From an uncultured Burkholderiales bacterium (GTDB taxonomy: Bacteria > Pseudomonadota > Gammaproteobacteria > Burkholderiales > Burkholderiaceae_C): DNA of 14,496 nucleotides. A program made the position numbers and the translations under genes. This document shows positions 1 to 3,797 of this stretch, in pieces. The DNA lies in NCBI GenBank assembly GCA_903856875.1, contig CAIODE010000290.1:1-14496 (forward strand), read 5' to 3'. Below the pieces are notes generated by a model that made no database searches, was not told the DNA's origin, and saw only the letters and a program-made list of their open reading frames with translations. Numbering within the stretch: the first letter of the stretch is position 1; every line of letters begins with the position of its first letter.

Positions 1-35
1 ACAAACATGTGGATAGATTTGGGATAACAACATGC

Positions 36-44
36 TTATCCACA
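36..44 (+). promoter_or_regulatory. Perfect-consensus DnaA box
   Basis: TTATCCACA matches the canonical high-affinity DnaA site exactly. It sits in an AT-rich setting 20 bp from an inverted near-match at 8-16, which gives two opposed sites as often seen in origins. Confidence 0.8.
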
Positions 45-152
45 ATTAATTTTCATTTTCAAAGTTGTTCATATGGGCGTGACAACTCAGAAGCAAGCTC
101 ATGCACACCCTTCAAAATGATTCAATGCATTGATCTATAAAGAAAAAAGAGA

Positions 153-169
153 CTTGTCCACAGAACAAG
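153..169 (-). terminator. Weak possible terminator for the oxidoreductase gene
   Basis: CTTGT (153-157) and ACAAG (165-169) form a 5-bp stem with a 7-nt loop. Read on the minus strand it is followed by a T-rich run (complement of the A-rich 140-149), as in a factor-independent terminator. It lies about 75 nt beyond the stop of the gene at 243. The stem is short, overlaps a DnaA box, and may be incidental. Confidence 0.25.
154..162 (+). promoter_or_regulatory. DnaA box (one mismatch) next to the unwinding-like element
   Basis: TTGTCCACA differs from TTATCCACA only at the third base. It is the box nearest the C-rich patch and the CTA triplets at 181-192, so it is the natural candidate to anchor DnaA loading onto the trio strand. 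Confidence 0.6.
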
Positions 170-180
170 CCTCCCCTTAT

Positions 181-192
181 CTACTACTACTA
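181..192. repeat. Four tandem CTA triplets, DnaA-trio-like
   Basis: Four exact CTA copies lie 18 bp downstream of a DnaA box, separated by a C-rich patch and followed by TGT, ATT, AAT and CTA in the same register. Known DnaA-trios read GAT, or close variants, 3' to 5' on the bound strand, which is what the complement shows. The match comes from reading the pattern, not from a scored motif search. Confidence 0.6.
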
Positions 193-242
193 TGTATTAA
201 TCTATCTAAAAGAAGAATACAAAGACAAAGTCAGAATTCAAA

Positions 243-3200
243 TTAAATGGCTTTTCTGAATGCATCCATGCAGTTTTGCCACTGAACCATGACGGCAGCC
301 AGGTGTTTTTCTTTCACGTGACCAAATCCTTTGATTTGTTCAGTCACATTGGCCATTTTGACCGCCAAGGCATGATTATCTGAATTCAAGGATGCTAACA
401 ATTCATGGACAGCATCTTTGTACTCTTGAATGAGAGCACGTTCTGTTTGCCGCTCGTCGGTGCGACCAAAAATATCCAAAGCCGTGCCGCGTAAAAATTT
501 AAATTGAGCCAATACTTTGAAAACCAGCACCATGTGAGGGCTCATTTTTTGTTTAATGAGCTGACCCTTGTCATTGCGTTTGGCAATGATGGGTGGGGCT
601 AGATGGTAGAAAACCTTGAAATCGCCTTCAAACTGCGTTTTAACGCGTTCTAGGAACTGTTTGTCGGTGTGCAAGCGGGCCACTTCGTACTCATCTTTGT
701 AAGCCATCAATTTGAACAATTGACGCGTGACAGTTTCAGTCAGCAAGGTAGAGCCCAAATGACTTTCTTTGGCTTTGACCATCGAAATAAAGTCTTCGTA
801 TTGTTTGGCGTAAGCAGTATTTTGATAATCGGTTAAAAACTCAACGCGTCTGGCGATCAAATCTTCTAAACGATCACGTTTTTTAAACGAAATGATTTGC
901 AGTGGTTTTAACAAGGTTTGAACAGCCGGCAATTGATGGGCCGCATGGCGGCCCCATTCAAAGGCGGCTAGATTTTGAGCAACAGCCACATCATTCAATG
1001 TGATGGCACGTTGTAAAGCTTCAAGACTTAAAGGGACCCAGCCCTTTTGCCAGGCATAACCTAAAAGCATAGGGTTGATGTAAATCGTATCGCCCATCAA
1101 TTGAGATGAAAGTTGATCGGCATCAAATGAAGCCAAACCATGAAGCCCAACCGTAGAAGCAATGTCAGCAGCACAACTGTCAGCTGGGTTTTGCCAAAGT
1201 GTATTTTTAACAAACTCTGCAGTGGGTGTGCTGTGAGAATTCAAGGCAACACGCGTTCTGCCTTCTATCATGCGTGATAAGGTTTCTTTGCCAGCTGTCA
1301 CGATGGGATCACAACCCAGAATTAAATCAGCCGCCGCCATGCTGACTCGAGTGGTTTGGATGTCATCTTGGTGTTTGGCCAATAAAACATGACTCCAAGT
1401 TGCGCCACCTTTTTGTGCCAAGCCTGCAGAATCTTGGGTCACGATGCCAAGTCCATCTAAGTGAGCGGCCATGCCCAAGAGCTGACCAATTGTGATCACA
1501 CCTGTGCCGCCAACACCAGCAACAACAACGCCATAGGGTTGCTGTGCCTTGCCTAAATCGGGCAACACAGGCAAAGGCAAAGCGGGCAAAACATCGGAGC
1601 TGTACTTTTGTTCTTTGGACTTCTTTTTTAATTGTCCACCTTCAATGCTGATAAAACTGGGACAGAAGCCTTTGAGACAGCTGGTGTCTTTGTTGCAAGT
1701 ATTTTGATTGATGACTCGTTTGCGGCCAAACTCAGTTTCAAGAGGCTCAACAGACAAACAATTGGATTGAACACCACAATCGCCGCAGCCTTCACAAACC
1801 AACTCATTGATCATGACACGCACTGCAGGGTCGACCATGGTGCCGCGCTTGCGACGACGACGCTTTTCAGTGGCGCAGGTTTGGTCATAAATAATGACCG
1901 TACAACCCTTCACTTCGCGCAGTTGTCGCTGCACCGCATCAAGCTCGTCGCGGTGATGAACCAAGACACCTTCAGCCAAAGCAATGCCGTCGTATTTTTC
2001 GGGTTCATCGGTCACGACCTTGATCACCATGGCGCCTTCAGCGCGCATGCTTTGCGCAATTTGAACAACCGTGTGTCCTTCCGCGCGCTCGCCGACGCGC
2101 TGACCACCCGTCATGGCAACCGCATCGTTGTACAAAATTTTGTAGGTGATGTTGACGCCAGCGGCAATGCTTTGACGGATGGCCAAGATGCCGCTGTGAA
2201 AATAAGTGCCATCCCCGATGTTGGCAAACACATGTTTCTCATGGCTGAAGTGTTGTTGGCCTATCCAAGGCGTGCCCTCGCCCCCCATTTGCGTAAAGCC
2301 AACCGTGCTGCGGTCCATCCACACACTCATGAAATGGCAACCAATGCCCGCCATCGCACGCGATCCTTCGGGTACTTTGGTGCTGGTATTGTGGGGACAA
2401 CCTGAGCAGAACCAAGGCGTGCGGTCTGCCGATGGATTTAGAACCAAATTATTTTGTGCGCGCTCCTTGGCTTCGATGATCTGAAGTTGACCATTGATGC
2501 GTGCCAAAACATCAGAAGGTAAATCTAATTTGAAGAGCCGCTTGGCCAAGGCCTTGGCTATCAAGGTGGGCGTGAGGTCGGCATTGGCGCGAAGAAGGCG
2601 ATGCGCCACTGGGTTGGGCACAGACCACTCGCCGCCAGAGTGATCGCCTTCGATCTCATCAAATTTGCCAACAATGCGCGGCCGCTGTGAGTCGGGCCAG
2701 TTGTACAACTCTTCCTTCAGTTGGTATTCAATCATTTGGCGTTTTTCTTCAACCACCAAAATCTCTTTCAAGCCTTTTGCAAACTCACGAGTGCTTTGCG
2801 CCTCTAACGGCCAAACCACAGAAACCTTGTGAACACGAATACCCAAACGCTTGCAGGTTTCTGTGTCTAAACCCAGATCCACCAGGGCTTGTCGGGTGTC
2901 GTTGTAGGCTTTGCCGCTGGCCATGATGCCGTAGCGATCGTTCGGGCCTTCTATGACGTTGTAATTCAAACGATTGGCGCGAATGTAGGCCAGCGCGGCG
3001 TACCATTTGTAATCAAACAAACGGGCTTCTTGATCAAGTGCCGAGTCGGGCCATCGAATGTGAACACCGCCTGGCGGCATTTCAAACTCCGGCAAAATGA
3101 TCTTGACCCGATCTGCGTTGATGTCAGCGGTGGCACTAGATTCAACAATTTCTTGAATGGTTTTCATGCCAGACCACACACCTGCAAAACGGCTTAGCGC

Positions 3201-3797
3201 AATGGCGTGAACACCCAGATCTAAAACCTCTTGAACAGAAGCGGGAAAGAACACGGGCAAGCCACAGGCCTTGAAAATGTGATCGCTTTGGTGTGCGGCG
3301 GTAGAGCTTTTGGCAATGTGATCGTCCCCTGCCACGGCCAATACGCCGCCCAAGGCTGTTGTGCCCGCCATGTTGGCGTGCTTGAACACATCGGAACAAC
3401 GGTCCACCCCCGGCCCCTTGCCATACCAAATGCCAAAGACGCCATCTAGTTTTTGACTTCCTGGGGGCGCAAAGCCCAATTGTTGGGTGCCCCACAAGGC
3501 CGTGGCCGCGAGCTCCTCGTTGACCCCGGGTTGAAAAACGATGTTGTGTTTTTCCAGGTAAGACTTGGCCTTCCATAAAGCCTGGTCATAGCCGCCCAAT
3601 GGCGAGCCACGATAGCCGCTGATCAAGGCACCGGTACTTTTGCCGGCCAATGCATCTCGTTCTTGCTGCAGCATCGGCAAGCGAACCAGGGCTTGAACGC
3701 CGCTCATAAAGGCCCGGCCTGATTTCAAACTGTATTTGTCGTCTAGGGTGACGTTGGCCAGCGCGAGCCGCAGGTGTTCAGGCAGAGGAGCGTTCAT
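243..3797 (-). CDS. Indolepyruvate:ferredoxin oxidoreductase, single-chain fused form
   Basis: This is a thiamine-diphosphate and iron-sulfur enzyme of the 2-oxoacid:acceptor oxidoreductase family. It converts aryl pyruvates (indolepyruvate, phenylpyruvate) plus CoA to aryl-acetyl-CoA and CO2 and passes electrons to ferredoxin; it is cytoplasmic. At 1184 residues it has the length of the proteobacterial form that fuses the alpha and gamma parts. The N-terminal pyrimidine-binding region lies around residues 20-260. A CSGCPHN motif is at 464-470, and the thiamine-diphosphate motif begins with GDG at 528-530 and reaches N557. A cysteine-rich region (C668, C671, C674, C680, then C701, C707, C712) should hold [4Fe-4S] cluster(s). 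The gamma domain opens with the glycine-rich GVGGTGV at 761-767, and a family-specific C-terminal domain follows from about 970. The ATG at 3797 gives the normal family N-terminus; a weak AAAGTGG lies upstream. The gene is intact. The true preferred 2-oxoacid cannot be read from sequence. Confidence 0.93.
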   Translation of the reverse strand: MNAPLPEHLRLALANVTLDDKYSLKSGRAFMSGVQALVRLPMLQQERDALAGKSTGALISGYRGSPLGGYDQALWKAKSYLEKHNIVFQPGVNEELAATALWGTQQLGFAPPGSQKLDGVFGIWYGKGPGVDRCSDVFKHANMAGTTALGGVLAVAGDDHIAKSSTAAHQSDHIFKACGLPVFFPASVQEVLDLGVHAIALSRFAGVWSGMKTIQEIVESSATADINADRVKIILPEFEMPPGGVHIRWPDSALDQEARLFDYKWYAALAYIRANRLNYNVIEGPNDRYGIMASGKAYNDTRQALVDLGLDTETCKRLGIRVHKVSVVWPLEAQSTREFAKGLKEILVVEEKRQMIEYQLKEELYNWPDSQRPRIVGKFDEIEGDHSGGEWSVPNPVAHRLLRANADLTPTLIAKALAKRLFKLDLPSDVLARINGQLQIIEAKERAQNNLVLNPSADRTPWFCSGCPHNTSTKVPEGSRAMAGIGCHFMSVWMDRSTVGFTQMGGEGTPWIGQQHFSHEKHVFANIGDGTYFHSGILAIRQSIAAGVNITYKILYNDAVAMTGGQRVGERAEGHTVVQIAQSMRAEGAMVIKVVTDEPEKYDGIALAEGVLVHHRDELDAVQRQLREVKGCTVIIYDQTCATEKRRRRKRGTMVDPAVRVMINELVCEGCGDCGVQSNCLSVEPLETEFGRKRVINQNTCNKDTSCLKGFCPSFISIEGGQLKKKSKEQKYSSDVLPALPLPVLPDLGKAQQPYGVVVAGVGGTGVITIGQLLGMAAHLDGLGIVTQDSAGLAQKGGATWSHVLLAKHQDDIQTTRVSMAAADLILGCDPIVTAGKETLSRMIEGRTRVALNSHSTPTAEFVKNTLWQNPADSCAADIASTVGLHGLASFDADQLSSQLMGDTIYINPMLLGYAWQKGWVPLSLEALQRAITLNDVAVAQNLAAFEWGRHAAHQLPAVQTLLKPLQIISFKKRDRLEDLIARRVEFLTDYQNTAYAKQYEDFISMVKAKESHLGSTLLTETVTRQLFKLMAYKDEYEVARLHTDKQFLERVKTQFEGDFKVFYHLAPPIIAKRNDKGQLIKQKMSPHMVLVFKVLAQFKFLRGTALDIFGRTDERQTERALIQEYKDAVHELLASLNSDNHALAVKMANVTEQIKGFGHVKEKHLAAVMVQWQNCMDAFRKAI

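Follow-up and report, generated by a model that had tools for sequence, protein, structure and literature searches.

The origin of E. coli lies away from dnaA and carries an IHF site between its DnaA boxes. According to two published accounts of the basal unwinding system (BUS), DnaA on a trio-adjacent box loads a filament 3′ to 5′ along the trio strand (PMC6669920, PMC8287927). PMC10225481 places E. coli oriC between gidA and mioC and, like PMC9584773, shows that an oriC may lie at a distance from dnaA. According to PMC4403523, a few bacteria, Ralstonia pickettii 12D included, have been proposed to carry two origins on one chromosome. Among the papers listed, none dealt by title with the origins of the family studied here, and none was found on minCDE in Limnohabitans; DoriC tables and subscription papers, which lay outside the scope of this search, may hold a prediction for a relative.

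The window analysed in the present study is a whole contig of 14,496 nucleotides (C290) from a draft assembly of 2,600,801 bases in 592 contigs, 88.88% complete. Among the matches listed, the nearest relatives of its indolepyruvate ferredoxin oxidoreductase-type (IOR) protein come from Limnohabitans and Comamonadaceae assemblies, and on this basis we take the host to be a Limnohabitans-type freshwater bacterium. Positions 1 to 242 of the window are very probably the chromosomal replication origin, oriC, as predicted from the sequence and from the GC skew of relatives. The points in favour are a single motif match, the skew change, a constant 14-bp distance, the nearby mnmG, rsmG, parA and parB, and the lack of detectable MinC and MinE in the window's clade. 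The architecture of this predicted origin is ordinary; its location, the apparent Min loss and the re-siting across the family are the interest.

Parts of the element and their likeness to described origins

Table 1. Features at the left edge of the window, with positions counted from its first base
Feature	Position	Strand	Remarks
Predicted oriC	1..242	+	Truncated at left, contig starts at base 1; matches in kin, box cluster, GC-skew change of relatives
DnaA box 1, CTATCCACA	8..16	-	1 mismatch
DnaA box 2, TTATCCACA	36..44	+	Perfect
Weak DnaA box 3, TCATGCACA	99..107	+	2 mismatches vs TTATCCACA, 1 vs TTWTNCACA
IHF-like site, CAATGCATTG	123..132		Fits CAANNNNTTG; between boxes 3 and 4
DnaA box 4, TTGTCCACA	154..162	+	Adjoins trios
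Spacer, GAACAAGCCTCCCCTTAT	163..180	+	18 bp: 14 bp variable with C-rich end, then TTAT
Four DnaA-trios, 3′-GAT-5′ on lower strand (CTACTACTACTA on upper)	181..192	-	Four exact CTA triplets
Predicted A+T-rich unwinding stretch	181..242		74% A+T vs 48% for the window
IOR gene	243..3797	-	3′ end at 243, converging on the element; Pfam POR, TPP_enzyme_C, DUF6537; enzyme name assigned by eye

The DnaA boxes form a cluster above background, and an A+T-rich stretch flanks them (74% at 181–242). The first-pass annotation had claimed one perfect box, which is indeed found at 36–44, and a C-rich patch followed by four exact CTA triplets after the innermost box, which were recovered at 163–180 and 181–192, respectively. 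Its count of four boxes with at most one mismatch holds for the degenerate TTWTNCACA, but only three remain with the strict TTATCCACA, as 99–107 has two mismatches. The claimed order of box, GC-rich patch and trio stands as well, but the 18-bp spacer exceeds the published maximum of 16 bp. An RNA element was rejected, as the Rfam scan of the window gave zero matches at gathering score.

Where BUS origins have at least three trios of the form 3′-NAN-5′, the window has four exact 3′-GAT-5′ ones at 181–192. Read outward from box 4, the trio strand is 3′-GATGATGATGAT-5′, in agreement with the BUS model. Relative to BUS origins as described in PMC6669920 and PMC8287927, the element is alike in the order of box, spacer and trios, in the 3′-GAT-5′ consensus and in the predicted 3′ to 5′ loading. 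In contrast, it has a single good box adjoining the trios, and the distance from this box to the first trio is 18 bp (14 bp plus TTAT), whereas the published search program accepts no more than 16 bp (PMC8287927); we therefore call the element BUS-like. No 9-mer with four or fewer mismatches lies within the spacer clear of the trios.

With E. coli oriC the element shares a place off dnaA, mnmG (gidA) in the neighbourhood and an IHF-like motif between boxes. It is unlike E. coli oriC in its immediate neighbour, which is IOR in the window or minC in 25 of 29 other genomes, in its exact trios, and in its distance of 82–240 kb from dnaA in eight same-genus genomes. A likeness to the dnaA-adjacent origins of many bacteria exists within the family, where four modules lie between dnaA and dnaN (L226, L230, L231, L238). 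In contrast, the element of the window's genus lies at dnaA in none of the eight genomes in which the two share a contig.

The element was matched in 45 of the 60 same-genus genomes searched, own included; the other 15, including seven of the 35 good-quality genomes, gave no match, which counts against the oriC reading. Dropping identical copies left 37 distinct copies of the genus for alignment. In the column of box 1, aligned relatives often carry TTATCCACA, TTGTCCACA or CTATCCACA; in that of box 2, all 37 carry a box within one mismatch of TTATCCACA; and the CACA portion of box 3 is kept. A regular expression allowing 13–15 bp between box 4 and TTA recognised the core in 34 of the 37, and this distance was 14 bp in every one of the 34, although the intervening sequence varies. 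An extra T or C follows TTA in 26 of these cores, while TTA directly precedes CTA in the other eight, giving 14 bp to an in-register NAN triplet. In the three unrecognised copies (L126, L016, L158), CTA replaces TTA and the distance is unchanged. Of the 34 cores, 21 carry CAANNNNTTG, which we take to be the core of IHF sites, at 31 bp ahead of box 4, against 0.43 expected from shuffles, a contrast overstated by the relatedness of the sequences. One HU/IHF-family protein was detected in the own genome.

These parts suggest the following course of events. DnaA would bind boxes 1–4, and bending of the DNA at the IHF-like site that separates boxes 3 and 4 may assist it. A DnaA filament starting at box 4 would load 3′ to 5′ onto the 3′-GAT-5′ trios of the lower strand and stretch that strand, whereupon the A+T-rich stretch would open and the helicase could be loaded. 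We infer DnaA binding, unwinding and IHF action here, as well as the deletion and inversion proposed below and their direction.

How far chance could produce such a site was judged with a composite pattern of two trios, TAA, 11–17 free bases and a box, scanned on both strands with the reversed pattern as control. It matched the own 2.6-Mb genome once, at 154–186, and the control did not match. Since perfect boxes are no commoner in this genome than their reversed control (6 vs 7), single boxes are meaningless and clusters are what count. The left edge has the top box count per 200 bp in the window (4, by TTWTNCACA). In G006, a relative of the same genus assembled as one contig of 2,948,795 bases, 400 contiguous kb contain 38 boxes with at most one mismatch, four of them within 250 bp at the element against one at each of the other places listed. 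Box density elsewhere, which the first-pass annotation had proposed as a check, is thus far lower than at the element in G006. The element or module also holds or shares the top rank per 250 bp in G033 (2 boxes), G013 (3), G131 (3) and G190 (4), the contrast being less sharp than in G006. A relaxed module scan gave one module each in 400 kb of G006, 360 kb of G013 and 300 kb of G131; its reversed control gave 0, 0 and 1 matches, respectively, the match in G131 counting against the oriC reading. The same scan found no match in G033, a further point against it, as box 4 of that genome, TTGTACACA, has more mismatches.

GC skew and the position of dnaA

In the own genome, dnaA (identified by Pfam) lies on contig C155 and not on the contig of the element, between a group formed by rpmH, rnpA, yidC and trmE and the pair dnaN and gyrB (neighbours named by eye). 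A DnaA-domain search covered 12 same-genus relatives, mostly of few or long contigs. In eight of them dnaA and the element share a contig, at distances of 82 kb (G006, G001), 83 kb (G031), 136 kb (G025), 148 kb (G033), 155 kb (G035), 183 kb (G013) and 240 kb (G053); in four they are on different contigs (G055, G023, G026, G027). Thus, dnaA was found within 1–2 kb of the element neither in the own genome nor in these relatives. The own rpmH–dnaA gap contains one perfect box, whose place upstream of dnaA counts against the element as oriC, and two 9-mers with two mismatches; the module scan found no trio module in it. On these grounds rpmH–dnaA was rejected as the origin.

As the own draft of 592 contigs does not permit a skew test, the inference runs through relatives. 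GC skew was calculated from fetched stretches: for G006, 100–500 kb contiguous plus 20 samples elsewhere; for G033, G013, G131 and G190, the element–dnaA region only (plus two samples in G013), so that in these four the minimum may lie elsewhere. In G006, the twelve 20-kb bins at 100–340 kb are negative and the eight at 340–500 kb positive. Beyond them, 10 of 10 samples are positive at 0.55–1.82 Mb and 8 of 8 negative at 1.9–2.82 Mb; before 100 kb, the sample at 50–70 kb is negative and that at 0–20 kb positive inside an otherwise negative arm, which counts against the reading. From these signs, the shift at 335–345 kb looks like the genome-wide one. The change point falls at 335 kb, the element at 343.3 kb (log-likelihood loss 1.81) and dnaA at 260.6 kb (loss 40.49). 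In other words, the skew changes sign 8 kb from the element, and dnaA is 82 kb from the element.

The fit is closer still in two other genomes. G033 has its change point at 377.0 kb and its cumulative minimum at 376,556, with the element at 377,564 (loss 0.00) and dnaA at 228.6 kb (23.08); corresponding values for G131, a one-contig genome of another genus, are 141.0 kb, 140,532, 139,580 for the module (0.00) and base 70 for dnaA (20.63). The skew change in both is at most 1.5 kb from the element or module and 140–148 kb from dnaA. In G013, the skew is locally ragged and has its minimum at 1,235 kb; the change point, at 1,217 kb, is 67 kb off the element at 1,284 kb (4.48), which counts against the reading; dnaA is at 1,467 kb (20.24). 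In G190, the change point at 4,516 kb is 11.5 kb from the module found by the pattern at 4,504.5 kb (5.40), with dnaA at 4,615.5 kb (33.01). This also counts against the reading, though a second, box-rich module at 4,515.6–4,515.8 kb lies less than 1 kb from the change point.

The element or module therefore beats dnaA in all five genomes and fits closely in three, a number that rises to four with the second G190 module. The cumulative skew minimum goes with the element closely in G006, G033 and G131, and more loosely in G013 and G190. Had the skew minimum and dnaA both been far away, the origin call of the first-pass annotation would be in doubt; dnaA is far, but the skew change is at or near the element (G006, G033, G131) and not at dnaA. 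The skew change in relatives and the low box density elsewhere support that call for the left edge.

The skew also bears on whether the real oriC is at rpmH–dnaA and the element a locus near the origin for DnaA titration or reactivation. In E. coli, datA and DARS2 are DnaA-box clusters with IHF away from dnaA, and the element, too, has clustered DnaA boxes and an IHF-like motif at a distance from dnaA. Nevertheless, a datA- or DARS-like role appears very unlikely, because in each of the five genomes examined the skew change agrees much better with the position of the element than with that of dnaA, and because the own rpmH–dnaA gap has a single perfect box and two 2-mismatch 9-mers without a trio module.

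Neighbouring genes and the Min system

Sixteen of the 60 same-genus genomes, own included, match the element with E 1.7e-23 or better and form a window-type clade (G000, G001, G003, G005, G006, G009, G012, G019, G020, G031, G032, G034, G036, G042, G051, G056). The IOR gene lies 4–17 bp from the matched element in all 16, so the observation that the origin sits directly beside an indolepyruvate oxidoreductase gene extends to the whole clade. Among 14 other loci compared, minC is 44–83 bp from the matched part in 12, and neither minC nor IOR is present in L025 and L032. Of the 29 non-clade genomes with the element, 25 have a MinC domain on the same contig within 1 kb (464–628 bp); it is 5.4–6.3 kb away in G046, G048 and G044, and on another contig in G047. 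In the non-clade loci looked at, minC is just downstream of the element.

MinC (PF03775) was undetected in 18 of the 60 genomes, namely the 16 of the clade, including the one-contig G006, plus two that lack an element match too: G041, which is 70% complete, and G058, which is in 680 contigs. Thirteen genomes have MinC and no element match. MinE was undetected in the eight clade genomes tested and present in all five others. The clade appears to have lost the minCDE division-site system; loss is preferred to gain because minC is the commoner state in the genus.

The arrangement of genes suggests how the two neighbourhoods are related. In L170 the order is mltA, aldolase-like, OYE-like, metal-ATPase-like (reversed), LTXXQ, membrane protein, small membrane protein, element, minC, minD, IOR (reversed), Lrp-like, mnmG, rsmG and parA. 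In L154, from the clade, it is mltA, IOR, element (reversed), LTXXQ, pirin, OYE-like, MFS-like, aldolase-like, mnmG, rsmG, LysE-like, parA and parB. Here MltA, pirin, MnmG, MinC, MinD, LTXXQ, IOR and DnaA were checked by Pfam, and the other genes were named by eye. Inverting the aldolase-to-IOR segment and deleting minCDE interconverts these orders, save for the ATPase-like, Lrp-like, MFS-like and pirin genes. Judged by gene order, loss of minCDE together with a local inversion that carried the origin best accounts for the IOR neighbour. The oriC of the genus would lie off dnaA, most commonly just upstream of minCDE; in the clade, minCDE would have been lost and the segment from the aldolase-like gene to IOR, with oriC, inverted between mltA and mnmG, so that oriC came to abut IOR at its 3′ end.

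In L126 and L170 (L170 9581–9790), a conserved hydrophobic protein of 70 amino acids stops some 13 bp short of the element. It is found near the element in 17 of 30 loci, in both arrangements, and frequently an LTXXQ (PF07813) protein accompanies it.

The change of neighbours also helps to judge whether the element is a DnaA-regulated promoter region of the flanking genes and no origin. Since minC is beside it in 25 of the 29 non-clade genomes, DnaA could also control minCDE. However, the clade element, at the 3′ end of IOR and without minC, is still conserved, and the skew of G006 changes at the element; the promoter explanation is thus extremely improbable. IOR itself was followed into other genera by examining 600 bp downstream of the gene in 80 of 596 matching stretches. 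Box clusters occurred among these 80 in only L034, L035, L036 and L038, which means that IOR does not mark origins in general; single boxes occurred in L047 and L081, and L037, L042, L055, L057 and L061 end there.

Putative origin modules across the family

The composite motif was present in 29 of 250 family genomes, own included, and its reversed control in one (G137). The strict pattern was found in 18 of 126 genera, and a missing match elsewhere says nothing on those origins. dnaA was searched in 14 of the 29 motif genomes, plus G013, G035 and G000 in separate searches; it is on the contig of the module in 13 of the 14 and on another contig in G145. The distances between them range from 0.7 kb (G236, G132), or 0.6 kb in G166 if its contig is circular, through 8 kb (G276, G088), 14 kb (G170), 38 kb (G303), 83 kb (G232) and 86 kb (G279), to 111 kb (G190), 132 kb (G075), 139 kb (G131) and 180 kb (G299, of the window's genus). 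The flanking genes of the other family modules, read by eye, differ. In G170, which belongs to another genus, the module is beside minC-minD (L217), 14 kb from dnaA; the minC neighbourhood may thus predate the genus.

Two modules in the same orientation occur 326 bp apart in G300, 621 bp in G232, 1.2 kb in G228 and 11 kb in G190; the double-module loci are L271 (G190:C1:4500001-4520000), L220, L229 and L235. They are possibly bipartite or duplicated origins. With such pairs known at spacings from 326 bp, 621 bp and 1.2 kb to 11 kb in other family members, the window could hold half of a bipartite or doubled origin, the other half being beyond the contig end. In G006, however, the sequence extends past the corresponding point and the scan gives one module in 400 kb, which makes a missing half very unlikely.

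With oriC at the left edge as the preferred reading, we give an even chance to a wider scheme in which the family origin is a small portable module that has changed place several times, at distances of up to about 240 kb from dnaA, through inversion and through duplication and loss of modules. It would have become the upstream neighbour of minCDE in the window's genus, linking the origin and the division-site genes, and one clade would then have lost Min entirely while its origin stayed next to a metabolic gene of unrelated function.

A probable origin has now been located for a freshwater lineage; if genome coordinates were counted from dnaA, the origin would be off by 82–240 kb in the relatives measured. 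Moreover, these related genomes form a series in which oriC has moved relative to the dnaA, min and par genes, which makes the effect of such moves testable. Finally, the origin neighbourhood and the missing MinC and MinE coincide in one clade, raising the question of how the division site is placed in these cells.
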